NCBI GenBank assembly: GCA_029984855.1
Contig: JARQZL010000141.1
Span: 1 to 34,519 of the forward strand
Length of the DNA stretch: 34,519 nt
Direction of reading: 5' to 3'
From: Archaeoglobales archaeon
Lineage (GTDB): Archaea; Halobacteriota; Archaeoglobi; Archaeoglobales; Archaeoglobaceae
Under the pieces are notes generated by a model, which saw only the letters and a list, made by a program, of their open reading frames with translations, was not told the DNA's origin and did not search any database. This document shows, piece by piece, positions 6,071 to 29,380 of the stretch (within the stretch, counting starts at the first letter, position 1; each line of letters opens with the position of its first letter). The position numbers were made by a program, and so were the translations under genes.

Positions 6071-7828
6071 ATGCTAACAAAAAACGCTAAAATTCTCCTT
6101 GAGAAGAGGTACCTAAGGAAGGATGAAAAAGGCAGGATTATAGAAACTCCCGATCAGATGTTCAGAAGAGTTGCCAAAGCTATTGCTAAGGTTGACGAAA
6201 GATATGGAAAAACAAAAGAAGAGGTGAAAGAAAGCGAGAGAAAATTCTACAGCATGATGAAAAATCTGGAGTTTTTGCCAAATTCTCCAACGCTGATGAA
6301 CGCAGGAACCGATATAAATCAGCTCTCTGCCTGCTTTGTCCTGCCAGTTGAGGATTCTATGGAAAGCATCTTTGATGCTGTCAAAAACATGGCAATAATC
6401 CAGAAGAGCGGTGGCGGGACGGGTATGGACTTCTCCAAAATAAGACCCAAGGGTGATGTCGTCAGATCCACAGGAGGTGTTGCTTCCGGCCCCGTCTCCT
6501 TCATGCGTGTATTTGACATAGCTACGGAAGTTACTAAGCAGGGGGGAAGGAGGAGGGGGGCAAATATGGGTGTGTTGAGGTATGACCATCCTGATATAAG
6601 GGAGTTCATAACGGCCAAATCTGAGAAGGAAATCCTGGAGAACTTCAATCTGTCAGTTGCAGTTGAGGACAGATTTATGGAGATGGTGAAAAATTCCGAA
6701 GACTACTGGCTGATAAACCCGAGAAATGGCAGTAAGGTGGAGAAAGTTAATGCAAGGGAGATTTTTGACCTAATAGTTGATTCAGCCTGGAAGAACGGCG
6801 ATCCGGGGTTGATATTTCTGGACGAAGTGAACAGGAAACATCCACTTCCGGAAAAAATAAGCACAACCAATCCGTGTGGTGAAGTACCACTCCTCCCGTA
6901 TGAATCCTGCAATCTCGGCTCGATAAACCTGACAAAAATGCTCAGGAAGTCTGGAGATGGCTGGGAAATCGATTATGACAGGCTGGAGGAAACTGTGAAA
7001 AACTCAGTGCACTTTCTTGACAACGTCATAGATGCCAATGAATATCCACTGCCGGAAATAGAGGAAATGACAAAGAAGAACAGAAAAATTGGCCTCGGAG
7101 TTATGGGCTGGGCTGAGATGCTGATAAGACTCCAAATAAAATACGACTCAGAAAAGGCGATCAGACTGGCAGAAGAGCTGATGTCATTCATAACCAGAAC
7201 AGCAAGAGAGAAGTCGGTTGAACTTGGAGAGGAAAGGGGTTCGTTTCCAAACTTCGAGAGGAGCATCTGGTCTAAAAATTACGAGTGCATGAGGAATGCA
7301 ACAGTCACCAGCATCGCCCCAACTGGAAGCATCTCCATCATAGCAGGATGTTCTTCAAGCATTGAGCCTCTGTTTGCAATTGCATACATAAGACACGTGC
7401 TGGATGGGGAGAGTCTGCTGGAGATAAATCCGGAATTTGAAGAAGTTGCGAGGGAGAGGGGTTTTTATTCGAGGGAGTTGATGGAGGAGATATCTAAGAA
7501 GGGTTCCTTGAAGGATGTGAACGTACCTGAGGACGTAAAGGAGCTTTTTGTGACTGCTCTGGACATTAAGCCAGAGTGGCACGTCAGAATGCAGGCCGCA
7601 TTTCAGAAGCATACTGATAACGCTGTTTCAAAGACGGTAAATCTGGCTGCGAGTGCAACGAGAAAGGATGTTGAAGATGTGTTCATGCTCGCATATGAAC
7701 TGAAGTGCAAGGGAATAACCATCTACAGGTATGGCAGCAGGGCGAAACAGGTACTCTACATTGAAGAAAAAGTGAGAGCAAAACCGGAATATTCTGGGGG
7801 ATGCATGTCAAGAGAGTGCACACTGTAA
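6071..7828 (+). CDS. nrdJ: Adenosylcobalamin-dependent (class II) ribonucleotide reductase
   Basis: The 585-residue enzyme reduces ribonucleotides to deoxyribonucleotides with a thiyl radical generated from coenzyme B12. Visible blocks are LPNSPTLMNAG, ACFVLPVEDS (one redox Cys), KSGGGTGMDFSKIRP, TTNPCGEVPL (active-site region), CNLGSINL, and TSIAPTGSISIIAGCSSSIEP. The C-terminus CMSRECTL carries the cysteine pair used for re-reduction. It is shorter than many NrdJ proteins and begins directly with the catalytic region, so no ATP-cone allosteric domain is present. A GGTGATG ribosome-binding sequence lies about 10 nt before the ATG. There is no activase or small subunit nearby, consistent with class II. 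Confidence 0.95.
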   Translation: MLTKNAKILLEKRYLRKDEKGRIIETPDQMFRRVAKAIAKVDERYGKTKEEVKESERKFYSMMKNLEFLPNSPTLMNAGTDINQLSACFVLPVEDSMESIFDAVKNMAIIQKSGGGTGMDFSKIRPKGDVVRSTGGVASGPVSFMRVFDIATEVTKQGGRRRGANMGVLRYDHPDIREFITAKSEKEILENFNLSVAVEDRFMEMVKNSEDYWLINPRNGSKVEKVNAREIFDLIVDSAWKNGDPGLIFLDEVNRKHPLPEKISTTNPCGEVPLLPYESCNLGSINLTKMLRKSGDGWEIDYDRLEETVKNSVHFLDNVIDANEYPLPEIEEMTKKNRKIGLGVMGWAEMLIRLQIKYDSEKAIRLAEELMSFITRTAREKSVELGEERGSFPNFERSIWSKNYECMRNATVTSIAPTGSISIIAGCSSSIEPLFAIAYIRHVLDGESLLEINPEFEEVARERGFYSRELMEEISKKGSLKDVNVPEDVKELFVTALDIKPEWHVRMQAAFQKHTDNAVSKTVNLAASATRKDVEDVFMLAYELKCKGITIYRYGSRAKQVLYIEEKVRAKPEYSGGCMSRECTL

Positions 7829-7906
7829 CACGTTATCCGAGAGAATTTGCATTTCAAATGAAACTGTTGACCACAAAACTTTAACATGGTACGGCTATTT
7901 TCAACA

Positions 7907-9040
7907 ATGCACCTCGGATTTCTTAAAAGAGGGCTCAAAAAAGAGAAGACTGAACTTGTTACCCTTGAAGATGCTGAAGCTAAACTTCTGGAGATAATTG
8001 AAGAGGGAGAGAGTTCTCTTTCCGAGTTTAAGTCTCAGAAGTTCCCTGAATTGAGGAGTGCTGTAAAAAAGCTGATTTTTGAACTTGAAGCTTTCGATTC
8101 TTTGAATCTTCACCCAAGACTGAGAAATGCTGCTAAAAACTTTGTCTCAGTGGCACTCGGTATGTGGAGTGACCTCAACGAAGCTGACAGAGACGGGTTC
8201 TTTGAAGAAGCGGCAAAGAACATGGAGAAGCTTGCTCTTATGAAGGTTAAACATTTTAGGATACTCTTTGCTGTTAACCCTCCGGAGATTGCACGGATAG
8301 ATCGGCAGTTCAGAGAAATTGCCGAAATAATTAGCATCATTGAGAACAAAAAATCTGAATTGAAGCTACTTTCTCTAAAAAATGCGTTAAGCACAGTTAA
8401 AGAAATTAAAGAACTCCAAAAAGAACGAGAGTTGCTGAGTAAAGAATGCAGTGAGGCCGACTCAGAGCTCAAGAAACTGAAAAGTTTGAAGGAGAGGAGA
8501 GATGGTGATGAACTGAGAGAACTGCTTGCTGAAATGGAGAGGATGGCAGAGGAAGTAAAAGAAAGTGAAAAAAAGGTCCAGAAAAAGATGGCCTATGCAA
8601 GAAAGCCCCTCAAGATCTACGCTCATATGATTGGAAGCAGGATTGATACCGGCTCTCCCCGTCTTCTTGATGAACCGGACATTGAGAAGCTTGCATCTAA
8701 AGCAGCGCTCGAAATCAGAAAGGGGAGCATAAAGCTGAAAGAGAAACGAATCGATGTTGTCCTTGCTTCTTTGAACGACATATCAAACGGGGAGCTGAAA
8801 AAGGAGTTTAAAAAAATCAGCAAGTTGAAAAATGAACTCGCTGACATCAAAAATCGGATAAAAATAGTCAAAGCCGAGATGGATGCAGGTAAACCCGGAA
8901 GGGAGAGAGTCCTTGAGAAAAGGCTTCAGTCAGTTAATGAGAGAATAAAGCAGGTGGATGCAAAGATTCTTGCAGCGAAAAAAGATCTTGAGAAAGAGTT
9001 GCACGATGTCCTCAACATAACTCTAAAACTGCAACTCTGA
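7907..9040 (+). CDS. Lys/Glu-rich coiled-coil protein of unknown function
   Basis: The product has 377 residues (384 if an in-frame ATG at 7886 is used; neither start has a clear ribosome-binding site). It is extremely rich in Lys, Glu and Leu. Two long heptad-repeat helices are evident, around residues 140-220 and 285-370, separated by a short Pro/Gly segment (GSRIDTGSPRLLDEPD). It has no signal peptide, membrane segment, Cys motif or nucleotide-binding loop. The arrangement suggests an elongated structural or scaffolding protein such as those linked to chromosome or cell-division functions, but no family is recognised. It lies between nrdJ and tRNA-Ser. Confidence 0.75.
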   Translation: MHLGFLKRGLKKEKTELVTLEDAEAKLLEIIEEGESSLSEFKSQKFPELRSAVKKLIFELEAFDSLNLHPRLRNAAKNFVSVALGMWSDLNEADRDGFFEEAAKNMEKLALMKVKHFRILFAVNPPEIARIDRQFREIAEIISIIENKKSELKLLSLKNALSTVKEIKELQKERELLSKECSEADSELKKLKSLKERRDGDELRELLAEMERMAEEVKESEKKVQKKMAYARKPLKIYAHMIGSRIDTGSPRLLDEPDIEKLASKAALEIRKGSIKLKEKRIDVVLASLNDISNGELKKEFKKISKLKNELADIKNRIKIVKAEMDAGKPGRERVLEKRLQSVNERIKQVDAKILAAKKDLEKELHDVLNITLKLQL

Positions 9041-16429: not shown

Positions 16430-16961
16430 CTTTCAATCCTGCATCACTCTTTAAGCATCAGTCTTTAAAAAGGAGAATGCGAGAATCCTTTGCTGTGTTT
16501 TTGAATTTTGGAGATTCTCGTGAAGTGCCCTCTGGTATTTGGTTAAGCTGCTGGGAAACAGCTGGTAACCCCATCTCACCTGGCTATCGACCTCCAAGCA
16601 TGAGTTGCCGGATTATTTCGAGCTGCTTCATACCTTTTTAGGATTTTCACTCGCCGCTAATCCCCGCGACTTCAGTTAGCAAACAGCTTTGGACATGTGC
16701 CCTCTTATATCTGCCAAGCTGGAGAACTATTATTCTCAACATCATTCAAAGGTGTATCTTTTTGCTGTTAGGTATTAAAGGCCAAAATGAAGATGCACTC
16801 TGCAACCATGAGCGCAGAGGGGTAAAGCATCTCTCAAAACTCAAGTAGCACAAAGACCTCGAAATTATTAAATTTTCCAGTAAGTATGTATAGAATAAAG
16901 TCAAAAAATACCCACCTTGGTGAGATTCAAGGACGCAATATAATCAGCGAACAGAGATTTC
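16430..16961. other. Gene-free stretch with inverted repeats
   Basis: No convincing gene is seen on either strand. Two imperfect hairpins stand out: CGAGAATCC (16480-16488) facing GGAGATTCTCG (16510-16520), and GGTTAAGCTG facing CAGCTGGTAACC (16541-16570). A 29-bp sequence at 16639-16667 matches the left end of the IS200/IS605 remnant found at 26979. The stretch looks like mobile-element debris upstream of the Hdr/CODH cluster. Confidence 0.5.
16639..16667 (+). repeat. Direct repeat A: IS200/IS605 left-end-like sequence
   Basis: These 29 bp, with core ACTCGCCGCTAATCCCCGC, match 27 of 29 bases at 26979-27007, which is the left end of a tnpA-bearing element, in the same orientation. Here the hairpin partner arm is changed (GCTAA...TTAGC can still pair) and no transposase follows, so it may be a solitary or decayed element end. 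With its partner it brackets the Hdr/CODH cluster. Confidence 0.65.
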
Positions 16962-16997
16962 GTTCCTTTGCCGAACACGACATCTTTATTTGTTTCC
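16962..16997 (+). promoter_or_regulatory. Shared 36-bp promoter element, copy 1 (Hdr operon)
   Basis: The element starts with an inverted repeat GTTC-CTTTGCC-GAAC, continues ACGA..TCTTTATTT and ends near TTTCC. It matches the element at 23338-23373 at 30 of 36 positions. CTTTATTT resembles an archaeal TATA box, so the inverted repeat sits where BRE and upstream activators bind. The hdrA start lies about 70 bp downstream, giving a leader of roughly 50 nt. Its conservation before both operons suggests one regulator. Confidence 0.75.
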
Positions 16998-17065
16998 GCT
17001 TGAAGTAAATTTGTTCCTCCTTAGTACTGTATAGGCTTGTAGGAAGTGATGGAGTGTTAGAACGA

Positions 17066-19138
17066 ATGAAGAAGCCTAGAATCGGTGTCTATGTTTGTCA
17101 CTGTGGTGAGAACATTGCCGGAGCGGTAGATGTCAAGAAAGTAAGAGAATTTGCAGAAAAACTTCCCGATGTTGTGGTCGCGAGGGATTATTTATTCATG
17201 TGCTCAGACCCGGGTCAAGAGTTGATAAAAAAGGACATCAGAGATGGTTTGGTGGACAGGGTTGTCGTGGCATCCTGCACACCTAAAACCCATGAACCAA
17301 TTTTTAGGAGAGCATGCGAGGCAGAAGGATTAAACAAGTATTATCTCGAGATGGCAAATATAAGGGATCAATGCTCATGGCCACACTGGCATGAGAAAGA
17401 AAAAGCCACAGAAAAAGCCAAGCAGTTGGTGGCATCTGCTGTGGCAAAAGCAAGATTGCTCAAGCCTCTGGAAGACATGTTTGTTGAACTCAATCAAGAT
17501 GTTCTCGTCATAGGTGGAGGGATAGCAGGAATATTTGCTGCATTGGATATTGGAAATGCAGGTTACAGGGTTTATCTCGTGGAGAAAAATCCATCGATTG
17601 GGGGAAATATGGCCAAGCTGGATAAAACGTTTCCCACGAACGATTGTTCCTCCTGCATCCTGACTCCCCTCATGGTGGATGTGGCAAATCATCCAAACAT
17701 CGAGCTACTCACATATTCAGAGGTTGAATCAGTTGAGGGGACAGTTGGAAAATTCAGAGTGAAGGTTAGAAAGAAACAGACCTGGGTCGACTGGGAAAAA
17801 TGCACGGGATGCGGAGCTTGCTTAGATGCATGCCCTCCAAAAGCTATGGTTCCAAACGAGTTCAATGAGGGGTTGGATACAAGAGGGGCAATATATATCC
17901 CGTTTCCACAGGCTGTTCCCAGAAAGGCGGTCATCGATATTGATGCGTGCATAAAATGCGGAGGTAGAGAGTTCGGAGAAGCTCCGAGAATTACCAGAGA
18001 CGGAAAGGAGATCCTTGCTCCCTGCGAGAAGGCATGTCCAACTGGAGCATGTTCGAGAACAGAACCCAAGAATCCAGAAGGGGAGGTTGTGGAGCTTGAG
18101 GTTGGTGCTATAATTGTTGCGACGGGATACAGGGTAATGGAGAAGACCCATTTCAAGGAACTTGCAGCACACTCCCCCAACGTGATAACAGCACTCCAAA
18201 TGGAGAGACTCATATCTGCAACAGGACCAACGGAAGGAAAGTTGATCATACCTGCAGATATACCAAAATACAAAGCCTGGAAGAAGAAGGGGAGGGGTGA
18301 AGACATCGAGCTGAGATCCCCAGAGGTTATAACTTTCATATCCTGCGTGGGCTCAAGGAGCAGAAAATACCATACTTACTGTTCAAGAGTCTGTTGTATG
18401 TACATGTTAAAGCAGGCGATGCAGCTTAAAGAGAGCTATCCCGATCTGGAGATATACATTTCCTTCATAGATGTTAGAGCTGCGGGGAAGGATTTTGATG
18501 AATACTATATGCGCTGCAAGGAGCTTGGAGTCAAAATTATTAGGGGCAGGGCAGGGGGGATTCAGGAATTACCCGACGGAAGGCTGCTGGTAAGAAGTTA
18601 CGACTCAGATATCGGAAAACCTGTTGAAATAGTCTCCGATTTGGTGGTACTAGCAACAGCAATTGAGCCCTCATCCAGCGAGCTGGCGAGAAAGCTCGGG
18701 ATAAGTCTAGGCGTCGAAGGATTTCTCAGAGAAAAGCACACAAAGTTGTATCCGGTAGATACGCTGAGAGAAGGCATATTCATTTGCGGCTGTGCCCAAG
18801 GCCCGAAGGATATTCCTGACTCTGTAGCCCAGGCGAAAGCGGCGGCCTCTTCCGCAATGGCTCTACTATCTAAAGGTAAAATGAGGGTCGAACCACTGAT
18901 TGCGGAGGTTGACATGGAAAAATGCAGCGGATGCGGAATCTGCGCTCCGTTGTGTCCGTACAAGGCGATAACAATTGAACACGATGGTAAAAGAAGGGCC
19001 GAAATAAATGCAACGCTATGTAAGGGATGTGGCGTGTGTGCTGCTGAATGCCCGAGCAAAGCAATAGACCTACATGGCTTCACCTTCGAGCAGATTCTAT
19101 CCCAGATTGAGGTATTTGCGGAGTTCGAGGAGGCTTGA
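17066..19138 (+). CDS. hdrA: HdrA-like flavin-based electron-bifurcating subunit
   Basis: The 690-residue protein has the full HdrA plan. There is an N-terminal Fe-S domain with CHC near residues 11-13 and SCTPKTHEPIF, followed by the FAD-binding Rossmann loop VIGGGIAGIFAALD. The HdrA hallmark TFPTNDCSSCILTP is present. A ferredoxin insert CTGCGACLDACPPKA follows, then a further Cys set (CIKCGG...CEKACPTGACSR), CVGSRSRKYHTYCSRVCC, and two C-terminal 4Fe-4S motifs (CSGCGICAPLCP and CKGCGVCAAECP). HdrA carries the FAD that splits or merges electron pairs in Hdr complexes. The ATG at 17066 is preceded by GGAGTG; a GTG at 17054 is the alternative. It heads the operon after a shared promoter element. 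Confidence 0.93.
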   Translation: MKKPRIGVYVCHCGENIAGAVDVKKVREFAEKLPDVVVARDYLFMCSDPGQELIKKDIRDGLVDRVVVASCTPKTHEPIFRRACEAEGLNKYYLEMANIRDQCSWPHWHEKEKATEKAKQLVASAVAKARLLKPLEDMFVELNQDVLVIGGGIAGIFAALDIGNAGYRVYLVEKNPSIGGNMAKLDKTFPTNDCSSCILTPLMVDVANHPNIELLTYSEVESVEGTVGKFRVKVRKKQTWVDWEKCTGCGACLDACPPKAMVPNEFNEGLDTRGAIYIPFPQAVPRKAVIDIDACIKCGGREFGEAPRITRDGKEILAPCEKACPTGACSRTEPKNPEGEVVELEVGAIIVATGYRVMEKTHFKELAAHSPNVITALQMERLISATGPTEGKLIIPADIPKYKAWKKKGRGEDIELRSPEVITFISCVGSRSRKYHTYCSRVCCMYMLKQAMQLKESYPDLEIYISFIDVRAAGKDFDEYYMRCKELGVKIIRGRAGGIQELPDGRLLVRSYDSDIGKPVEIVSDLVVLATAIEPSSSELARKLGISLGVEGFLREKHTKLYPVDTLREGIFICGCAQGPKDIPDSVAQAKAAASSAMALLSKGKMRVEPLIAEVDMEKCSGCGICAPLCPYKAITIEHDGKRRAEINATLCKGCGVCAAECPSKAIDLHGFTFEQILSQIEVFAEFEEA

Positions 19139-19142
19139 TTCT

Positions 19143-19700
19143 GTGGAGGAGCATGTTCCGGCGGTTATAAACTTAACCTACTTATGGAAGAAAGAAAGAG
19201 AAGAACTTGGGGAAAAAGTTATCGAAACAATCAAAGGTTTTGGGGCGGAGGGTATAGAATATTGCATGCAGTGTGGTGCATGTTCGTCCATCTGTCCTCT
19301 CGCCACGACTGGATTCGAGTGGTACAACAGAAGGCTGATAAAAGCGATAGATTTTGGAATCAGAGATGAACTCTTTGATGATGTAACGCCTTGGGCGTGT
19401 GTGGCGTGCAACAGATGTGTTGAGGTCTGCCCAAGGAACGTGAATCCGTTTGAGGTTATGTTTGCGATGAGAAGACTGATGATTGAGGAGCTCGCAGTTC
19501 CAATGACAGCAGTTCAAGCACTAAAATCATTATATGATCATGGTCATGCAGTCTATACAACCGGCAGAGAAGCGAGAAAGAAAGTGGGATTGCCTGAGAA
19601 ACCTCCAACGACCGACTCTGACGAGAAAGCACTTGAGGAGCTGAGAGTTTTGCTTAGAAACACAAAACTGCCCGAACTCGGGTTGTTCCCGATGAGCTAA
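19143..19700 (+). CDS. hdrC: HdrC-like iron-sulfur subunit
   Basis: The 185-residue protein has two ferredoxin-type motifs, CMQCGACSSICP (residues 41-52) and CVACNRCVEVCP (86-97), the pattern of HdrC. HdrC wires electrons from HdrA to the active-site subunit HdrB. I chose the GTG at 19143, four bases after the hdrA stop, because GAGGAGG lies about 9 nt before it. The frame is open further upstream into hdrA but that part is not family-like. The hdrA-hdrC-hdrB order suggests one complex. Confidence 0.9.
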   Translation: MEEHVPAVINLTYLWKKEREELGEKVIETIKGFGAEGIEYCMQCGACSSICPLATTGFEWYNRRLIKAIDFGIRDELFDDVTPWACVACNRCVEVCPRNVNPFEVMFAMRRLMIEELAVPMTAVQALKSLYDHGHAVYTTGREARKKVGLPEKPPTTDSDEKALEELRVLLRNTKLPELGLFPMS

Positions 19701-19725
19701 AAGGTTATTAATATAGGTGGTTTTG

Positions 19726-20625
19726 ATGAAATACGGTTTGTTTTTAGGCTGCAACATATCATTCAACAGGCCAGATGTCGAGGCTGCAATTAGAAGCGTG
19801 TCCCCTCTTTTGGGTGTAGAGCTAGATGATTTAAATGGTCAGTCATGCTGCCCGACTTGGGGGACTGTGCCATCCGTAGATACCATTGCATGGTGCGCTG
19901 TTGGAGCGAGGAATTTGGCGTTAGGTGAAGAGAAGGGAATCGATCTGGTTACCGCATGCAACACGTGCTACAGCAGCCTCAGTGAAGCGAGATATAAGAT
20001 GCTGAACGATGCAGAGACGATGCGAGAGGTCAATGAAATTTTGAAAAAAATAGGCAAGGAATACAAAGGTAAATCGAAGTGCAGACATGTTGCATGGGTT
20101 CTTTACCGGGATGTCGGATTAGATCGAATAAAGAAGGCAGCAAAATACGAGCTGGATGATATTGTAATAGCTGTTCAGCCGGGATGTCACTTTCTATGGC
20201 CATCCAAAGTACTCCCGGACAGGGAGGAGGATCCTTTCAACCCTGTAGTCCTAAGAGAGCTTTGTAAAGTATTGGGCGCAGATGTGCGGCCTTACACGAG
20301 GATGATTGACTGCTGTGGTGCAGGTGCTTTAAAAAGCACCAACCAAGAGAAGTCGTACAAGCTTGCAAAGATGAAGCTCGAATGTATCAGGAAGGAAACT
20401 GATGCAGACCTTATAGTAACAACCTGTTCTTCCTGCCTAATCCAGCTCGATGAGGCACAGGAAATGCTCAGGAAGAGGGGGGAAATCGATTTTTCCATTC
20501 CGGTTCTGCATTACGTTCAATTGCTTGCTTTGTGCATGGGTTTCGATCCCGAGAGGGTTGCTGGAATTTGCGTCACTCCAAGAGATGAGATAATCAGCAA
20601 AATTGTGGAGAGTGGTAGGAAATGA
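19726..20625 (+). CDS. hdrB: HdrB-like subunit with two CCG (noncubane cluster) domains
   Basis: The 299-residue protein has two cysteine-rich CCG domains. The first spans FLGCN, GQSCCPTWG and ACNTCYSS. The second spans QPGCHF, DCCGAGA and TTCSSC. In methanogen HdrB such motifs hold the paired noncubane 4Fe-4S clusters that cleave a disulfide substrate; both sets look complete. The start is ATG 19726 with GGTGG at 6-nt spacing; a GTG at 19717 is less likely. The stop overlaps the mvhD-like start (ATGA). The natural substrate (CoM-S-S-CoB, DsrC-type disulfide or another thiol) is unknown. Confidence 0.9.
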   Translation: MKYGLFLGCNISFNRPDVEAAIRSVSPLLGVELDDLNGQSCCPTWGTVPSVDTIAWCAVGARNLALGEEKGIDLVTACNTCYSSLSEARYKMLNDAETMREVNEILKKIGKEYKGKSKCRHVAWVLYRDVGLDRIKKAAKYELDDIVIAVQPGCHFLWPSKVLPDREEDPFNPVVLRELCKVLGADVRPYTRMIDCCGAGALKSTNQEKSYKLAKMKLECIRKETDADLIVTTCSSCLIQLDEAQEMLRKRGEIDFSIPVLHYVQLLALCMGFDPERVAGICVTPRDEIISKIVESGRK

Positions 20626-21578
20626 TGAAAAAAGAGTTCGAGCCGCAGATAATTGTATTCTGCTGCAACTGGTGCTCTTATGGGGCTGCAGACTTGGCAG
20701 GCTCCCTCCGAATGAGTTATCCCCCAAATGTAAAGATAATAAGGGTGCCATGCTCGGGTCGTGTTGACCCCCTTCTCATCCTGACAGCCCTTGAACTGGG
20801 GATAGACGGAGTTCTGGTAACTGGATGCCGGAAGGGTGAGTGTCACTATGTGGATGGCAATTACAGGGCAGAAGAGAGAGTTAATTTCTTAAAGATGCTT
20901 ATCGAAAACTTAGAACTCGAGCCTGATAGGTTGGAGATTCATTTCATGTCTGCATCAGAGCCGGATGTATTTGCCGAATCTGCAGCGGCCTTTACTGAAA
21001 CCATAAGAAAGCTGGGGCCCAATCCTCTTAGAGGAAGACTGAAAAAGGCCAGAAAAGCCGGTGTGGACAAGAAAAGGAAGATGCTCGCAGAGATGGCCAG
21101 AACTGTTGCAAAGATCCGGCGGATTGAGCCACTGAATCTGGGCGAAATTGAGGCCATTGAGGAGTTCGCAGAGGTGTACGTCGATCCTGATAGATGTGAT
21201 GGTTGCGGGGCTTGTGGGATTGTATGCGATTACAACGCCATAGAATTCACTCAGCTTGATGGGAGGAAAATGCTCGAATACAAGCCCGAAGAGTGCGTGC
21301 TCTGCGGGGTTTGCATAGATAGCTGTCCCAACAAAGCCATGGCGATTAAGAACAGATTGAGTCTGGGATCGGTTGTCTCTGGAGAGGCGATTACACAGAC
21401 GACTCTGCAGATGAGGAAGTGCAGGCTGTGCGGAAAATACTTCATCCCGGACAGGCTTGCAGAATCACTGATGGAGAAGACAAAGGTTACGGAAGCTTTG
21501 GATTATTGCCCGAATTGCAGAGTATACTTGAGTGCTAAAAAACTCATAGGAGTGTTTGAGAAAAAACTTAAAAATTGA
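20622..21578 (+). CDS. mvhD: MvhD/FlpD-like protein fused to ferredoxin and zinc-ribbon-like domains
   Basis: The product has 318 residues. Residues 1-125 match MvhD, the 2Fe-2S adaptor that passes electrons to HdrA: CCNWC (14-18), VPCSGRVDP (Cys44) and TGCRKGECHY (69-76) are diagnostic. Near residues 190-240 are two 4Fe-4S motifs, CDGCGACGIVCDY and CVLCGVCIDSCP. A C-terminal CRLCGKYF with CPNCR forms a further two-pair Cys knuckle as in some ferredoxin-like hydrogenase subunits. The usual partners MvhA/MvhG are absent, so an electron donor other than a local hydrogenase must be used. CooF/CooS is the obvious candidate (inference). Confidence 0.88.
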   Translation: MMKKEFEPQIIVFCCNWCSYGAADLAGSLRMSYPPNVKIIRVPCSGRVDPLLILTALELGIDGVLVTGCRKGECHYVDGNYRAEERVNFLKMLIENLELEPDRLEIHFMSASEPDVFAESAAAFTETIRKLGPNPLRGRLKKARKAGVDKKRKMLAEMARTVAKIRRIEPLNLGEIEAIEEFAEVYVDPDRCDGCGACGIVCDYNAIEFTQLDGRKMLEYKPEECVLCGVCIDSCPNKAMAIKNRLSLGSVVSGEAITQTTLQMRKCRLCGKYFIPDRLAESLMEKTKVTEALDYCPNCRVYLSAKKLIGVFEKKLKN

Positions 21579-21583
21579 AAACT

Positions 21584-22216
21584 ATGGATTATATAAACCA
21601 AATATTAGATTGCCATAAGTATTTTAAGCAAAGTGTTGAGTTCAATACCATGCAAGAAGCTGAGTACTCCGAACTGATTAGAGAATGGAGAGGAGTGTAT
21701 AAATCAGAACTGAGAGACCGCAAGCAGCTGCGGAAAAAAGTTTGCAATACAGAATGGGATCCTGAAAGTTACTTCAATGTTAGGAGGCCATCATTCGTCA
21801 AAATATCTCCAGACGATCACAAGTATGTCCGAACTTTCAGGATGGTCTCCTACGGTATGTTGCATTATAGCCCCTCTCTCAGGACGCTAATCCTCAGAAA
21901 TGCCGGATATGATCTTGCCCATAGACTGGTGGAGAAAAAGGAAATAAAAGATGTCGATGATCTGCCTGTAGTTTTTCTAAATCAGAAAATTGGACTCTTA
22001 GATATAGTCAATGAGTCATTCAACAAAATGGAGATCAACCTCTACGAATGTATAAGCTGCTATAACGCTCCACCGATTGGAAGAACTTTGTGTGATTTTG
22101 AGGCGGGAATTATTCAGGGTGCCTTAGAGACCCTTATTGGAGCGAATGTGACTAAGGAGATATATTGTTTCGGCCTGGGAAATTCGTTCTGCGGGTTTGA
22201 GGTTGCATTCGAATAA
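21584..22216 (+). CDS. V4R-domain protein, putative small-molecule or redox sensor
   Basis: The product has 210 residues. The C-terminal part shows the V4R pattern: YECISCYNAPPIGRTLC (Cys156, 159, 170), then FEAGIIQGALETLIG and a final CFGLGNSFCGFEVAF. V4R domains occur in regulators such as XylR/DmpR and in bacteriochlorophyll-related proteins, binding small ligands; the conserved Cys may hold a metal. There is no DNA-binding domain of its own. A TTG at 21575 overlapping the mvhD stop is an alternative start. It sits between mvhD and the radical SAM-HTH gene (4-bp gap), so it likely works with the latter. Confidence 0.75.
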   Translation: MDYINQILDCHKYFKQSVEFNTMQEAEYSELIREWRGVYKSELRDRKQLRKKVCNTEWDPESYFNVRRPSFVKISPDDHKYVRTFRMVSYGMLHYSPSLRTLILRNAGYDLAHRLVEKKEIKDVDDLPVVFLNQKIGLLDIVNESFNKMEINLYECISCYNAPPIGRTLCDFEAGIIQGALETLIGANVTKEIYCFGLGNSFCGFEVAFE

Positions 22217-22220
22217 CAAC

Positions 22221-23327
22221 ATGCCGCTGCTTGTAGTTCAACCCTCCAGCAAATGCGATGGTGGTTGTTCCTCTTGTCGCTGGAATTTTGGACCAAGAAA
22301 TGAAAAAGAGGGTTTACCCATTGAGGCTTTGGATAGGCTGAAAGAACTGCTTAATAACTTTAAATTTGATGAGTGCATCTTACTCTGCCCAAATCCCTTA
22401 TTCCATCCTAAACTTGACATCATTATAGACCTGATCCATGAAATATGTGAGAAAACAACTATCTTCCTGCCGATCTCCATTACGAGAAATCTCCTTAATA
22501 GAAAGTCACTTGAGAAAGTTGATGTTATCTCCTTGCTCATCCCCTCTTACGATAGTGCAAAAGTAAACATTCAACTGGTGAAAACCCTAGTTTCTCAGGG
22601 CTTGGAGGATATTGAGGCATACGTCCTCTTAGATTCAAATCGTGGCTCTGCTGAGGTTCTTTCCACCATCGATTTGTGTAAAAGATACGGATTGAAAATA
22701 ACTGTCGGACCTATGTTTTATGATCCACCACGTACTAGTAAATTCATAGAGTATCTGGAAAAAAGGGAAGATGCCGAAATCGGGCTACGCTATGGTAAAA
22801 AGTACCTTTACAACGCAATCAAAGTATTTCTAAAAGATTATCCTGTAACAGTCCTAACATCAAACGGAATTGAGGACTGCAGAACACTTTACATTGACCC
22901 TTATGGATACTTCTCTAAGTGTCCAACATACGGAAAGAAGGTTCATTTTCAGAACCTCACTTCCGATGCACTTCGGAAAATGGTGTTCTCTCGGTGTCCG
23001 GTAGATAATTCCGTGATGCTGTCACCCCGCATACACATATCCCTTGTTGCAAAGAATGGTGTTGAGATACCGAGCGATGTTCTCGAGCTACTTGAATTGG
23101 TGTTTTGGCTTAAATCATTCAGGGGGGCGTGTAGAGCCATGGGCGTTCCCCCATCAACATTCTGGGAGAAAATCAAAACACTTGAGAAAGAACTGGGGAC
23201 AACCTTGCTGATATCTGTGAGAGGGGGAAGGAAAAGGGGCAAAACTGCACTAACAGAATTCGCTCAAAAACTTTTAAATGAGTACGCCAATGCCAAAAAG
23301 AATATTTTAACGGCTTTTTATAAGTAA
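22221..23327 (+). CDS. Radical SAM-like protein fused to a ModE-type helix-turn-helix
   Basis: The product has 368 residues. The N-terminus has CDGGCSSC (Cys12, 16, 19), a radical SAM cluster motif, then a barrel-like segment in which the usual GGE loop is replaced by LLCPNPLFHP. A SPASM/twitch-like part follows: Cys220 before LYIDPYGYF, KCPTYG (Cys234) and RCPVD (Cys259), able to ligand an auxiliary cluster. From about residue 286 the protein is a ModE/LysR-like winged helix: LKSFRGACRAMGVPPSTFWE (recognition region), then LEKELGTTLL, RGGRKRGKTALTEFAQKLL. ModE binds DNA in this way at its N-terminus; here the domain is C-terminal. It lies 4 bp after the V4R gene, and its stop is 10 bp before the cooF promoter element. 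It may be a cluster-based sensor or regulator (inference). Confidence 0.75.
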   Translation: MPLLVVQPSSKCDGGCSSCRWNFGPRNEKEGLPIEALDRLKELLNNFKFDECILLCPNPLFHPKLDIIIDLIHEICEKTTIFLPISITRNLLNRKSLEKVDVISLLIPSYDSAKVNIQLVKTLVSQGLEDIEAYVLLDSNRGSAEVLSTIDLCKRYGLKITVGPMFYDPPRTSKFIEYLEKREDAEIGLRYGKKYLYNAIKVFLKDYPVTVLTSNGIEDCRTLYIDPYGYFSKCPTYGKKVHFQNLTSDALRKMVFSRCPVDNSVMLSPRIHISLVAKNGVEIPSDVLELLELVFWLKSFRGACRAMGVPPSTFWEKIKTLEKELGTTLLISVRGGRKRGKTALTEFAQKLLNEYANAKKNILTAFYK

Positions 23328-23337
23328 GACTGCTTTT

Positions 23338-23373
23338 GTTCTTTTACCGAACACGAAGTCTTTATTTTGTTCC
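23338..23373 (+). promoter_or_regulatory. Shared 36-bp promoter element, copy 2 (cooFSC operon)
   Basis: This matches the element at 16962-16997 at 30 of 36 positions. It contains GTTC-TTTTACC-GAAC, then ACGAAGTCTTTATTTT. The TATA-like CTTTATTT centres about 37 bp before the cooF ATG (23400), so the leader should be only about 10 nt. The element begins 10 bp after the radical SAM-HTH stop, separating two transcription units that share a control site. Confidence 0.75.
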
Positions 23374-23399: not shown

Positions 23400-24005
23400 A
23401 TGCCGAGTAAGAACATTGTTTATGTTCACCCGGAAAAATGCACCGGGTGCAGATCATGTGAGATGGCCTGCGCAGTTGCGCACTCAAAAAGCAAAAATCT
23501 TTACGAGGCAATATTCGAAAAGCCAACACCAAAACCGAGGTTAAAAGTCGTTGCTGTAGATTTCTTCAATGTTCCAATGAGATGCCAGCACTGCGATGAG
23601 GCTCCGTGTTTGGATGCATGTCCCACAGGAGCGATCTCAAAAACGGAGGAGGGTTTTGTACTTCTCAATCAAAATAGTTGCATTGGCTGTCTGATGTGCG
23701 TTATGGTGTGTCCATTCGGGCACCCGAGATACGAGCCAGAGTACAGATCTGTCCTCAAGTGCGGTTTTTGTGTAGAGAGAGTTAGGGAGGGAAAAGAGCC
23801 GGCATGTGTTGAGGCGTGCCCAACTGGTGCATTGGAGTACGGGCCACAAGAAGAGATCTTGGATGAAATTAAGAGGGACAAAGCAGAGAAGTTTATATCG
23901 GGAATGAAGGTGAAAGGGTTGGTTTACACAACACCCGTTCCTGAAAAAGAAAAAAGTTTACTCACGGAGTTGAAGAAATCCTATTCAGAAATTGGATGGT
24001 ATTAG
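23400..24005 (+). CDS. cooF: CooF-like polyferredoxin
   Basis: The 201-residue protein has four 4Fe-4S motifs: CTGCRSCEMACAVAH, CQHCDEAPCLDACP, CIGCLMCVMVCPFGHP and CGFCVERVREGKEPACVEACP. The arrangement is that of CooF/HycB-type electron carriers that accept electrons from CO dehydrogenase. The ATG at 23400 has GAGGGGT just before it; an in-frame upstream start at 23367 would lie inside the promoter element and is rejected. cooS follows after 21 bp. Confidence 0.9.
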   Translation: MPSKNIVYVHPEKCTGCRSCEMACAVAHSKSKNLYEAIFEKPTPKPRLKVVAVDFFNVPMRCQHCDEAPCLDACPTGAISKTEEGFVLLNQNSCIGCLMCVMVCPFGHPRYEPEYRSVLKCGFCVERVREGKEPACVEACPTGALEYGPQEEILDEIKRDKAEKFISGMKVKGLVYTTPVPEKEKSLLTELKKSYSEIGWY

Positions 24006-24026: not shown

Positions 24027-25940
24027 ATGGTGGGAGAATATCCAGGTTATATTAAGCATAAGCTTCCGGCAAAGCAAATGACCGTAACTAAAGGTGTTGC
24101 AGAGTTGATTGAAAAAGCTGAAGATGACGAAGTTGAACTGGCGTGGCACAGGTTCATAAAGCAACAACCTCAGTGCGCATTTGGGCAGCTGGGGGTGTGT
24201 TGCAGAAACTGTAACATGGGGCCGTGCAGAATCGATCCTTTTGGTTCGGGTGCGACAAGGGGCACATGCGGGGCTACCGCCGATACGATAGTGGCAAGGA
24301 ACCTTCTAAGAATGATTGCTGCTGGCGCAGCCGCACACAGCGATCATGCAAGGGACGTTGTACATGTATTTGAAGGGACGGCCAAAGGTAAATTCAAAGA
24401 TTATAAGCTCTCCGATACTGAGAAACTAAAGATAGTGGCCAAAGCCTTGGGTATAGAAATTGAGGGGAGGGGAACTGGTGAAATAGGAGTTGAAGTCGCC
24501 GAGGTACTGAAGAAGGACTTTGGTAAGGTAGATGAGGAGCCTATGGAGCTTGTAAAGGCACTGGCGCCAAAGAGAAGAACGGAAATTTGGAGAGAGTCAG
24601 GAGTTTTGCCGAGAGCGGCTGACAGAGAGATCTGCGAATGCATGCATAGGACCCATGTCGGTGTGGATGCAGACGCTGCAAGTCTACTTCTACACGGGAT
24701 CAGAACCTCTATATCCGATGGATGGGGAGGATCGATGGCGGCAACCTTGCTTAGCGATATACTCTTTGGTACACCAAGGCCAGTCAGCTCTAAAGCCAAC
24801 TTGGGAGTCCTGAGAAAGGACATGGTAAATATAATAGTTCACGGACATAATCCTATTCTCTCAACGAAGATCGTAGAAATAGCGCAAAGCGAGGAAATGC
24901 AGAAACTGGCTGAAGAAAACGGTGCAAAAGGTATCAATGTAGCTGGAATGTGCTGTACGGGCAATGAAGTTCTGATGCGATTAGGTGTCCCGGTAGCCGG
25001 AAACATGTTAATGCAGGAGCTGGCGATCGTAACGGGTGCGGTGGAGGCCATAATAGTGGATTACCAGTGTATATTGCCAGCCATAGTTGATGTTGCCCAA
25101 TGCTACCATACCAAAGTAATAACAACTGAACCAAAAGCCCATATACCCGGAGCGGTTCACATTGAGTTCGACCCTGAAAGGGCGGACGATACCGCCAGAA
25201 AGATCATCAGGATTGCCATTGAAAACTACAAAAACAGGATTTCCGAGAAGGTATATATCCCGGAAAATACAATGGAACTAGTTGCTGGATTCAGTGTAGA
25301 AGCTATCGTCGAGGCACTTGGCGGCTCACTCGAACCACTGATAAACGCACTAAAAGATGGGACAATAAAAGGAGTTATAGGAATTGTTGGCTGCGTGAAT
25401 CCAAAAGTTAAACATAATTACACTCACACAGTCCTGGCCAGAGAACTTATTAAGAGAGATGTGCTTGTTGTTGGAACTGGATGCTGGTCAATCGCGGTAG
25501 CAATGGATGGTCTGATGACTCCGGAAGCTGCTAACCTAGCCGGTCCGGGTCTTAAGAAAGTCTGTGAGACTTTGGGTATCCCGCCATGCTTGCATATGGG
25601 CTCTTGTGTGGATTGTTCAAGAATTCTACTGGCTTTAAGTGCGCTATCAGATGCATTGGGTGTTGACATACCCGATCTACCTGCTGCAGGCTCTGCACCA
25701 GAATGGATGAGTGAGAAAGCAGTATCCATCGGTACCTACTTTGTTGCCAGCGGAGTGTTTACTCACCTCGGAACCGTTCCGCCAGTACTCGGAAGTCAAA
25801 AAGTTACAAAGATACTCACAGAAGATGCAGAAAAGATTGTAGGTGGTAAATTCTATGTTGAACCGGATCCTGTGAAAGCCGCAGAGACGATTTATGGCGT
25901 TATAATGGAGAAAAGAAAGAAACTGGGACTTCCAGTATAA
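24027..25940 (+). CDS. cooS: Ni-containing carbon monoxide dehydrogenase catalytic subunit
   Basis: The 637-residue enzyme oxidises CO to CO2. The N-terminus has the D- and B-cluster ligands: Cys50, Cys58, Cys59, Cys62, Cys67 and Cys81 in CAFGQLGVCCRNCNMGPC plus RGTC. C-cluster and active-site elements are present: VHGHNPILS (His), GMCCTGNE, DYQCILP, GIVGCVNP, GTGCWSIA and HMGSCVDCSR, with KAVSIGTYFVASG near the C-terminus. All key residues appear intact, so it should be active. It is the monofunctional CooS type, not the archaeal CdhA of the acetyl-CoA synthase complex. The ATG at 24027 has GGGGTGAT at good spacing. It sits between cooF and cooC. Confidence 0.96.
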   Translation: MVGEYPGYIKHKLPAKQMTVTKGVAELIEKAEDDEVELAWHRFIKQQPQCAFGQLGVCCRNCNMGPCRIDPFGSGATRGTCGATADTIVARNLLRMIAAGAAAHSDHARDVVHVFEGTAKGKFKDYKLSDTEKLKIVAKALGIEIEGRGTGEIGVEVAEVLKKDFGKVDEEPMELVKALAPKRRTEIWRESGVLPRAADREICECMHRTHVGVDADAASLLLHGIRTSISDGWGGSMAATLLSDILFGTPRPVSSKANLGVLRKDMVNIIVHGHNPILSTKIVEIAQSEEMQKLAEENGAKGINVAGMCCTGNEVLMRLGVPVAGNMLMQELAIVTGAVEAIIVDYQCILPAIVDVAQCYHTKVITTEPKAHIPGAVHIEFDPERADDTARKIIRIAIENYKNRISEKVYIPENTMELVAGFSVEAIVEALGGSLEPLINALKDGTIKGVIGIVGCVNPKVKHNYTHTVLARELIKRDVLVVGTGCWSIAVAMDGLMTPEAANLAGPGLKKVCETLGIPPCLHMGSCVDCSRILLALSALSDALGVDIPDLPAAGSAPEWMSEKAVSIGTYFVASGVFTHLGTVPPVLGSQKVTKILTEDAEKIVGGKFYVEPDPVKAAETIYGVIMEKRKKLGLPV

Positions 25941-25972: not shown

Positions 25973-26773
25973 ATGAGGGTGCTGGTAGCTGGAAAAGGGG
26001 GCGTAGGGAAAACAACGATTTCTGCTCTTCTATGTTTCATACTCTCTGAAAAAGGCTACAACGTTCTGGCATTGGATACAGACTCCGTACCAAATCTTGC
26101 TCAGAGTCTGGGAGTTCCTTACGAGGAGGCATTAGAGATAGTACCTCTCTCAAGAAATGAAGAGCTGGCAGAGAAGAGAACTGGTGCAAAACCCGGTAAA
26201 GGATGGGGTGTTCTTTTCTCGTTAACTCCCAAAGTCGATGATTTAGCAGAAAGGTATGGTATACGAATAAGAGATAATCTGAGGCTTGTGGTGGTAGGTA
26301 GCATCGAGCAAAGTAAGGAAGGCTGTCTGTGCCCATCAATCGCATTAGCCAGAGCCTTTCTTTTACACACCATGATCTCAAGAAAAGAAATTGTGGTAGT
26401 TGATTGTGAGGCCGGTGCTGAGGTTTTTGGAAGGGGTCTTGCCGAAAAATTTGAAATAATGCTTTGTGTCACGGAGCCAACCTTCAAATCTCTGATGATA
26501 GCAAGAAAGTTGATAGACATGAGCAAACAATTGGATATTCCCAATGTAATCTTGGCGATCAACAAAGTAAAAGACTCGATGAGAGCATCAGTCATGTATA
26601 AAAAAGTGTTCTCTGGCAGCATACAATACAACATAATAAGATTGGATGAAAACATAACTCTGTTAGATAACGAAGGCTTAGGTTTGAATAAAATCCCAAA
26701 AACTTCGCCGGTCTATAGGGATGTAGAAAACCTTTCAAAGAAACTTATATCAATCAAAAAACGATCAAAGTAG
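25973..26773 (+). CDS. cooC: CooC-type nickel-insertion ATPase
   Basis: The 266-residue P-loop protein has the deviant Walker A GKGGVGKTT near residue 8 of the MinD/CooC group. It also has VVDCEAG (switch II region) and the CLC motif, which in CooC binds Ni or Zn at the dimer interface. It matures the CODH C-cluster by ATP-driven nickel insertion. I prefer the ATG at 25973 to a GTG three codons upstream. It lies 32 bp after cooS and ends the operon. Confidence 0.92.
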   Translation: MRVLVAGKGGVGKTTISALLCFILSEKGYNVLALDTDSVPNLAQSLGVPYEEALEIVPLSRNEELAEKRTGAKPGKGWGVLFSLTPKVDDLAERYGIRIRDNLRLVVVGSIEQSKEGCLCPSIALARAFLLHTMISRKEIVVVDCEAGAEVFGRGLAEKFEIMLCVTEPTFKSLMIARKLIDMSKQLDIPNVILAINKVKDSMRASVMYKKVFSGSIQYNIIRLDENITLLDNEGLGLNKIPKTSPVYRDVENLSKKLISIKKRSK

Positions 26774-27042: not shown

Positions 27043-27481
27043 GTGGAAACCATCCGTAATTTAACGGTCAAAAAAGAACACTGGATTTCTGCAAGAGGAT
27101 GTGTGTACAACGTTAATTATCACTTTGTAAGGTCAACAAAATATCGGAAACCTGTATTGACGGGAGAAGTTGCAGAATACTTGAAGCAACTTCACGAGGA
27201 GATAGCTGAAGAAAGAGGGATAGTCCTGCACAGCCAGGAGGTTATGCCCGATCACGTTCACCTTTTTGTTAGCTCATCCCAAGTGGTCACCTGCTCAACT
27301 CGTCAAGATATTCAAGGGTATAACTGCGAAATTCCTGTTCGAAAAATTCCCGTGGCTGAAGCACCAGCTCTACAGGGGGCATTTGTGGAATCCCTCTTAC
27401 TACGTTGGGATTGCCGGTGATGTGACGAGGAATGTGCTTGCCTTAGTCTGGGGCCTTATTGAGATTTCTGTCTTCCTGTAA
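27043..27481 (+). pseudogene. tnpA: Broken IS200/IS605 TnpA (Y1 HUH transposase)
   Basis: The first frame (GTG at 27043) gives NYHFVRSTKYRKPVL and the HUH metal motif MPDHVHLFV. The normal continuation HPKWSPAQLVKIFKGI lies in the next frame, so there is a shift near 27268-27275. The second frame runs to WNPSYYVGIAGDV but then diverges and ends at 27481. It lacks the helix with the catalytic Tyr (usually V..YI..Q after this block). The gene is thus both frameshifted and 3'-truncated and should be inactive. Confidence 0.85.
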
Positions 27482-27594: not shown

Positions 27595-28743
27595 TCACTT
27601 GAAAGGTTGACCTTTTCTGATGACAATTCTCCCGTCCGGAAGCGTTGCCACGTATTCCCACCCTGATTCAAGGTACGAATCGATCTCTTCTGGCCTGACA
27701 ACTTTCTGTCTCGGTTCCACGATCTCTTCGACTTTCACCTTTGTCTCGAGGAACATTTCTGCCGCCTGCTCGTACTTGAGCCTCATGTCCTCGATTAGCG
27801 TTTCGGGCAACCTGTTCTTATTCGTAGTGTACTGGTGCTCTATGTCTCCCTTGTGCCCCATCCAGAACACTCTGTAATCCTCCGGGATAATCCTGGAGGC
27901 TTCAGCCATCAGCATGTACGTGTCGAAGTAGTGTCTGAAGACGTAGGGTCTCCACGTGAAACCGGCAATTTCGATTGCGTTTTTGATCGTGCTGCTCACG
28001 CTCTTTGTCGTGAGGAATCCACCACCTCTCCGCGGGATAACTGGTGATGCCGGTGTAAGCTTTTCTCCACGCCGCAGTCTCGCATTGAGGTAGTCTACAA
28101 GGTATTCACAACCCTCTTCGCACAGAAACGTGAAGTACTGGTGTCTCGCCTTGCTGAGTGGAGAACGAACGATCACCATGGCGGGAGTGCTGGTAATCTC
28201 GACCCTGGGCCCGAGCACGAGTTCAGGGATGTCTCCGATTCTCAGCCCATCCGTTCCTCTGTAGTTTCCGAGGACCTCCAGCCTCACGCCAGAAAAAGCC
28301 ACGAGAGATATCGCCACTCTCACTCTCACGTCAGCAACCATCAAAGCTCGTCGCAACTCGTCCTTGCTCGGCACTTTTTCTACTTCAGACACTTTTGTCC
28401 TGTGAATGCCCTCTATCTTGACGTAGACGTTGAACTGTTGTCCGTGGAACCTGAACCAGTTTTTAAGTGCTTTAACGTATGAGCTGGCGTATGTGCCAGA
28501 CTTGCCCTCCAGGTTGGTGACGTAATCGAGCACAATTTTCCTGAGCTCTTCACCATCCATCTCCAGCAGTGCTTCTGGCTCGGTGCCCGTATCTGTGCAG
28601 AACTTTACAAGTCTTCTCAAGTAGAGGTCAGCCGTAGAAGGGGATCCCCTCTCCAGGTTCTTGTACCATCTGTAGATGTTCTCGTTTCTGTTCTCGTTTC
28701 CGGGGAGGTCTCTGTAGTTATAGTTGACAGCCTTCTTCGACAT
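27595..28743 (-). CDS. Tyrosine recombinase / integrase (archaeal mobile element type)
   Basis: The product has 382 residues. The N-terminal half resembles a core-binding domain (STADLYLRRLVKFC, ASSYVKALKNWFRFHG). Catalytic elements are SGVRLEVLG (Arg I), SPLSKARHQYF (Lys), FRHYFDTYM (Arg II with the following His), FWMGHKGD (His III) and EHQYTTNK (the likely Tyr nucleophile). The first position of the HxxR box is Tyr rather than His (YVFR), which some archaeal integrases share. ATG 28743 has GGTGGAG upstream and overlaps the preceding gene by 26 nt. It is the last gene of the minus-strand operon. Confidence 0.88.
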   Translation of the reverse strand: MSKKAVNYNYRDLPGNENRNENIYRWYKNLERGSPSTADLYLRRLVKFCTDTGTEPEALLEMDGEELRKIVLDYVTNLEGKSGTYASSYVKALKNWFRFHGQQFNVYVKIEGIHRTKVSEVEKVPSKDELRRALMVADVRVRVAISLVAFSGVRLEVLGNYRGTDGLRIGDIPELVLGPRVEITSTPAMVIVRSPLSKARHQYFTFLCEEGCEYLVDYLNARLRRGEKLTPASPVIPRRGGGFLTTKSVSSTIKNAIEIAGFTWRPYVFRHYFDTYMLMAEASRIIPEDYRVFWMGHKGDIEHQYTTNKNRLPETLIEDMRLKYEQAAEMFLETKVKVEEIVEPRQKVVRPEEIDSYLESGWEYVATLPDGRIVIRKGQPFK

Positions 28744-29380
28744 ACTCGAACTCCACCACATATTTTCTCAACAACTCCTTGACGGATTCTCCCATCTCGT
28801 AAATCTCCCTATCGAGCAGCGACACCGACTGGAAAAACATCCTCGCAGCGATGCCCCCACCGTCCGTAAGCGAGGCGAGCGTGGCATTCCTGAGGTAAGC
28901 TTCCTGCTTCCTTGCAATGCTGGTGAGCATGTCGACGGCCGTGTACTTGTAAAAGTCCGGGCAGTCGTATCCTCTCATACTGCTGACGCAGCGTCCTGTC
29001 CTAAGATTCGTGTGAATGCAGTTCTCGCAGCCTGAAATCCAGGAATCTCTGATCCAGACGTAATCTGCAGGATCGAAATCCACGGCTTTCCAGACTTCGT
29101 AAACAGTCACGGGACTCCTGGGCAGGATGATGCACCTGCTGAACTTGGCCTGTATTTCAGCAAGCATTTTCAGATCTTCGACGCGAGTGAGGGGACTCCA
29201 GTACTCGTTCCACTTTCTCAGGACGGTGAACGTGTTTTCCTCGTTAACGTCGAAGAACTGTCCGAGCTTCTTGAGCTTGCCCTTTATTCTCGAAATTTTG
29301 TACTTCTCGTACTTCTCGTCGAGCTCTCCTTTCTGCACCTCTTCCAGAACTACGACTGGTGGTGAGATAAAGTCAAGCAT
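28718..29380 (-). CDS. Cys-motif protein of unknown function in an integrated element
   Basis: The product has 220 residues. A mid-protein cysteine cluster (CENCIHTNLRTGRC, then RGYDCPDF) could bind zinc or an Fe-S cluster. The N-terminal 90 residues are Lys/Glu-rich and helical. No enzyme motif is recognised. ATG 29380 overlaps the upstream stop (ATGCTTGA); an in-frame start 18 codons upstream is possible but would lie within the previous gene. Position between a winged-helix protein and an integrase suggests a plasmid or virus function. Confidence 0.6.
   Translation of the reverse strand: MLDFISPPVVVLEEVQKGELDEKYEKYKISRIKGKLKKLGQFFDVNEENTFTVLRKWNEYWSPLTRVEDLKMLAEIQAKFSRCIILPRSPVTVYEVWKAVDFDPADYVWIRDSWISGCENCIHTNLRTGRCVSSMRGYDCPDFYKYTAVDMLTSIARKQEAYLRNATLASLTDGGGIAARMFFQSVSLLDREIYEMGESVKELLRKYVVEFEYVEEGCQL

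Follow-up and report, generated by a model that had tools for sequence, protein, structure and literature searches.

A CorR family member with a predicted MoaA-like N-terminal half beside the CO dehydrogenase genes of an Archaeoglobales archaeon

The open reading frame at positions 22221-23327 of the window (the whole 34,519-nucleotide stretch of Archaeoglobales DNA that was analysed) adds a new member to CorR, a regulator family already known, and its product is, judging by sequence and gene order, almost certainly a CorR orthologue. Profile and model comparisons indicate that its N-terminal half is a worn-down radical-SAM (MoaA-like) fold, to which a ModE/LysR-type winged helix is joined at the C-terminus. 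The protein encoded just upstream has a V4R domain and is called CorQ here, as it reportedly is in the abstract of Kim et al. 2015 (AEM); the choice of names does not alter which two genes are meant. From the cysteines we infer that Cys56 takes over from the SAM-binding GGE and that the N-terminal domain may be a non-catalytic cluster holder acting as an Fe-S sensor. This sensor architecture of the CorR family appears to be unreported; no mention of a radical-SAM ancestry of CorR was found in the open-access literature, a scope that leaves out the original 2015 CorQR paper. Table 1 lists the features discussed.

Table 1. Features of the window around corR, with the evidence for each
Feature	Position	Strand	Evidence
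hdrA-like, first gene of the operon ending in corQR	17054..19138	+	NCBIfam
hdrC-like, true start probably downstream of the ORF start	19074..19700	+	NCBIfam
hdrB-like	19717..20625	+	NCBIfam
mvhD/ferredoxin fusion	20622..21578	+	Pfam, NCBIfam
corQ orthologue, V4R-domain protein, partner of corR	21584..22216	+	Pfam, NCBIfam, synteny, alignment, Foldseek
corR orthologue (368 aa), radical-SAM/MoaA-like domain plus ModE/LysR-type winged helix	22221..23327	+	ORF, domain, family and model data
MoaA-like radical-SAM/twitch fold, residues 4-256	22230..22988	+	hhalign match to MoaA (E=3.5e-8); Foldseek 2fb2/1tv7
C12-x3-C16-x2-C19, radical-SAM cluster motif	22254..22277	+	family alignment
C56-P-N-P, opposite GGEP of MoaA	22386..22397	+	C56 in 27/28
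C220-x13-C234, opposite the last two MoaA cluster Cys	22878..22922	+	each in 27/28
C259, third C-terminal Cys	22995..22997	+	26/28
ModE/LysR-type winged helix, residues 286-360	23076..23300	+	HTH_1 and ModE_repress in 28/28 members
candidate CorQR operator upstream of cooF, TGTTC-N7-GAACACG	23337..23355	+	CCGAACACG in 17/17 Thermococci-type loci
second copy of the element upstream of hdrA, CGTTCCTTTGCCGAACACG	16961..16979	+	near-identical to the cooF element
cooF-like ferredoxin	23400..24005	+	Pfam, NCBIfam, synteny
cooS, Ni-CO dehydrogenase catalytic subunit	24027..25940	+	TIGR01702 above cut-off
cooC-like P-loop ATPase	25973..26773	+	Pfam, NCBIfam, synteny

The CorR family and its genomic setting

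The family was found by scanning genome contigs with the CooS encoded near corR and then reading the CooS flanks. Six archaeal loci carried the fusion there, and their alignment served as the query for wider searches, which returned the fusion in 16 of 115 Thermococci genomes and about 10 full-length fusions in 398 Thermoproteota genomes. Searches with the single CorR sequence had given no relative beyond its own genome (genome contigs and viral contigs, and by tblastn plasmids and 394 genomes of the phylum), and the orphan look of the N-terminal half came from these; the family in the CooS flanks overturned that reading. The fusion was found at 28 archaeal loci, the window and 27 others, and is full-length apart from one copy truncated by the end of its contig. 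Each of the 28 adjoins cooF/cooS, and cooC as well wherever the contig reaches far enough. A V4R gene is directly upstream of the fusion in 23; among the rest, L165 and L181 stand at a contig end, and for L175, L176 and L178 no V4R gene was detected at the search threshold. At L179, cooFSC is divergent from the V4R/fusion pair. The fusion, for which the first-pass annotation had proposed an HMM search, is thus a conserved architecture and not a one-off. HTH-only matches in Archaeoglobaceae proved to be ModE-type regulators of the ordinary kind, lacking the fusion, and were rejected as CorR relatives. At seven loci of other Archaeoglobaceae (L004-L008, L012 and L015) a ModE-type HTH is combined with a periplasmic-binding-protein-like C-terminal domain, in a separate regulator family.

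A 36-bp EnfR site in the codh promoter of T. onnurineus has been published (PMC10570040), and L169 holds it letter for letter, immediately upstream of cooF. L169 is Thermococcus onnurineus NA1 and, as the match stands directly before cooF, its V4R and fusion genes are the published CorQR pair. This pair is described as a V4R protein and a LysR-HTH protein that together activate the CODH cluster in response to CO (PMC4791640, PMC6557876); the pair of strain NA1 is also cited in PMC13077300. In PMC6557876 the name CorQ is given to the LysR HTH protein and CorR to the V4R protein. The window ORF likewise encodes a LysR-type HTH beside a V4R gene and a CODH cluster, and the window proteins share 44% identity over the full length (CorR) and 63% (CorQ) with those of T. 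onnurineus. In phylogenetic trees, the CorR and CooS of the window group with Thermococci-type sequences (support 100/100 and 98/97). When the phylum of the window was searched with the 28-member alignment, the fusion was found in only one of 394 genomes, its own. This tree placement and the absence from the 393 other genomes sampled suggest that the corQR-cooFSC cassette arrived by lateral transfer. Just downstream of cooFSC lie an IS200-type transposase-like fragment (27043-27420) and a tyrosine-recombinase-like gene (27595-28761), which, taken with the Thermococci-like phylogeny, also suggest a transferred cassette.

Domains and cysteines of CorR

The winged helix that the first-pass annotation had placed from about residue 286 was borne out by several comparisons. 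HTH_1 (Pfam) matched residues 288-349 above the cut-off (E=1e-8), ModE_repress (NCBIfam) matched residues 286-360 (E=3e-9), and the C-terminus matched the solved ModE structure 2ijl (PDB) and, by Foldseek of the AlphaFold model, ModE 1b9m/2ijl. The same annotation had considered that the predicted structure might lack this helix or that homologues might carry a substrate-binding domain in its place. Neither was found: the helix is predicted, the HTH is present in 28/28 members, and a substrate-binding domain in none. The Pfam matches of CorR were to HTH and Radical_SAM only, with none to the MOP/TOBE molybdate domain of ModE, and the LysR substrate-binding (periplasmic-binding-protein effector) domain was not found by Pfam in CorR or in the family.

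The radical-SAM-like character of the N-terminal half, also proposed at the outset, was weak from one sequence and became firm with the family. On the single sequence, Radical_SAM (Pfam) matched residues 7-164 below the gathering score (E=0.0013), and none of the 28 members reached the Pfam cut-off; this would account for the failure of routine annotation to pick up this half. An hhalign comparison with the two single canonical radical-SAM proteins of the window was uninformative, and a MoaA family profile was needed. The 28-member N-terminal profile matched archaeal MoaA over 249 columns with a probability of 95% and E=3.5e-8, while a reversed-MoaA control gave 0.15. The AlphaFold model of CorR has a pLDDT of 78.5 and a pTM of 0.63, with the CX3CX2C loop (residues 13-27) modelled at low confidence (pLDDT below 50); the top PDB match of its N-terminal part in Foldseek was MoaA (E=3.7e-10). 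Both hhalign and Foldseek therefore identify a radical-SAM fold. The features of MoaA were not all retained: the positions of the GTP-site arginines read T222 and Y224, and only the last two cysteines of the CxxC-x13-C second cluster align.

The cysteines listed initially, Cys12-x3-Cys16-x2-Cys19 and a twitch-like set at 220, 234 and 259, are correctly placed in the 368-aa translation, and C220 and C234 align with the MoaA cluster cysteines. Among the 26 members that have the region of the N-terminal triad, C12 is kept in 25, C16 in 23 and C19 in all, and the complete CX3CX2C is present in the target and in 22 of these 26. The GGE motif that binds SAM is absent. The LLCPNP that had been noticed instead of it occupies residues 54-59, and its CPNP (56-59) stands opposite MoaA GGEP in hhalign, in the target and nearly all members. 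Two members have lost opposite sets: L177 (G691, 7565-8659) is without Cys220/234/259 and keeps 12/16/19/56, whereas L179 (G399, 2-1018) is without Cys12/16/19/56 and keeps 220/234. This reciprocal loss groups Cys56 with the N-terminal triad and points to two separable metal sites, Cys56 being a probable part of the N-terminal one. It also indicates that neither cluster is essential in every member. The presence of His instead of C16 in three members and the loss of C12 in one count against the two-cluster reading.

A candidate operator and the operons it may control

The sequence CCGAACACG is invariant between corR and cooF in 17/17 Thermococci-type loci, including the window, at a similar position just before a TATA-like, AT-rich stretch, and the Desulfurococcales loci have related elements. 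In the window, CCGAACACG with an upstream inverted half is found before both cooF and hdrA, each time followed by similar TATA-like sequence. Within the window's own genome, the perfect pattern GTTC-N6-CGAACACG marks only three sites, the cooF promoter, the hdrA promoter and a contig-end duplicate of the latter; 54 other family genomes have 0 or 1 match each. Five other Archaeoglobaceae genomes, all lacking corR, have one match each, which speaks against the operator reading. The third perfect match was rejected as a separate site, being the contig-end copy of the hdrA promoter. That copy (G000:C70:1-262, L193) is 262 bp long and 99% identical to window positions 16889-17150, which hold the hdrA promoter and 5' end, and represents either a repeat in the assembly or a second copy of the start of the hdr operon. 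The EnfR site was rejected as the source of the conserved element, which in T. onnurineus lies directly upstream of the 36-bp site (9211). A location directly upstream of a repressor site is the one expected for an activator. On the strength of its conservation, the CCGAACACG element is predicted to be the CorQR operator, and as such it appears to be unreported.

The genes hdrA-hdrC-hdrB-mvhD-corQ-corR share one orientation and are separated by few bases or none, so a site before hdrA would also give auto-control of corQR. The early proposal that CorR regulates this operon as well as cooFSC is supported by its orthology and by the near-identical elements before hdrA and cooF. In the CorQR regions fetched from the other loci, a search for homologues of the hdr genes found none. 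The MvhD-ferredoxin fusion encoded within the hdrACB operon that ends in corQR is a possible CO-to-Hdr electron route.

Proposed mechanism, rival readings and known systems

The explanation that we consider probable on the whole is that CorR and CorQ form a heme-free CO-responsive activator, CorQR, in which the retired radical-SAM half of CorR would no longer be an enzyme and would hold one or two Fe-S clusters. Cys12/16/19 and Cys56 would ligate one cluster and Cys220/234/259 the other. These clusters, the cysteine-rich V4R pocket of CorQ, or both would receive CO, or a redox change driven by it, and the complex would change in response. The winged helix of CorR would bind CCGAACACG, immediately ahead of the BRE/TATA region, and bound CorQR would bring in the basal machinery at cooFSC as well as at the hdrACB-mvhD-corQR operon, the latter amounting to auto-activation. 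Electrons from CO may then pass from CooS to CooF and to the Hdr/MvhD module in place of the hydrogenase used by Thermococcus. A narrower version is that a [4Fe-4S] site is kept, with Cys56 or CO itself in the place of SAM, and that DNA binding is switched directly by CO or by a change in redox state at this cluster; this is doubtful.

CO might instead be sensed wholly by CorQ, the radical-SAM half of CorR being a dimerisation or CorQ-docking scaffold with structural cysteines. Cys156, 159 and 170 of the V4R protein are invariant, and Cys195/203 are kept in 22/23. Foldseek with the CorQ model (pLDDT 74.9, the five models disagreeing) matched V4R/TRAPP proteins, the phenol-sensor domains of PoxR/MopR/DmpR and, lower down, H-NOX gas sensors. 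In MsvR, V4R cysteines control DNA binding, a precedent for redox control (PMC3729527), and some CorR members have lost either cysteine set, yet V4R and cooS were kept. The conserved cysteines and the likeness of the model to phenol sensors and H-NOX thus make CorQ a serious rival seat of CO sensing. A mere scaffold poorly explains the 93-96% retention of Cys56, 220, 234 and 259 at identities down to 21%, and sensing by CorQ alone is, in our estimate, rather unlikely.

Another reading is that CorR responds to Fe-S supply or redox state and not to CO, turning on CODH and Hdr once the cell has clusters or reduced ferredoxin at its disposal. The two candidate cluster sites, the MsvR precedent and the Fe-S-rich products of the regulated operons fit such a role, whereas the linkage is invariably to cooS and not to Fe-S assembly genes, and CO-responsiveness of CorQR is reported in PMC4791640 and PMC6557876; we regard this reading as improbable. 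The radical-SAM half might also still be catalytic, its SAM pocket being altered, and might for example modify CorQ or produce a ligand while the HTH tethers it to DNA. Most members keep CX3CX2C, the twitch-type cysteines are kept, and SAM enzymes are the closest folds in Foldseek; against this, CPNP replaces GGEP in nearly all members, three have CX3HX2C, L179 lacks the triad, T222/Y224 stand at the MoaA GTP-site arginines, and no member attains the Pfam Radical_SAM cut-off. Retained catalysis seems highly improbable.

Recognition of a decayed MoaA-like fold and its two sets of conserved cysteines provides a direct hypothesis for heme-free CO sensing in archaea that lends itself to mutation and, if true, would be a rare instance of an enzyme fold turned transcriptional sensor. 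The invariant CCGAACACG element is a target for footprinting, and L177 and L179, natural variants with opposite cysteine losses, are useful for dissecting the clusters. In this genome the shared element would connect CO oxidation with an Hdr/MvhD module; such wiring was not seen in the other loci examined.

CorR shares with MoaA (GTP 3',8-cyclase, a radical SAM enzyme with twitch) the fold, CX3CX2C and the last two C-terminal cluster cysteines, and differs in having CPNP for GGEP, in the loss of the GTP-site arginines and of the first Cys of the C-terminal CxxC, and in the added winged helix. The winged-helix DNA-binding domain is common to ModE and archaeal ModE-type regulators, although it is C-terminal in CorR and N-terminal in ModE; with LysR-type regulators CorR shares the HTH_1 domain. 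MsvR is likewise an archaeal regulator with a V4R domain and conserved cysteines; it is a single protein with its own HTH, whereas the V4R neighbour in the window has none. CooA and RcoM are also CO-responsive activators of CODH genes (PMC6557876), but they are heme sensors from other protein families with a fold unrelated to CorR. The closest known system is the CorQR of T. onnurineus, with the same order V4R-fusion-cooF-cooS-cooC, the same domain layout and CCGAACACG upstream of cooF; in the window, corQR differs in ending an hdr/mvhD operon that bears the same element.
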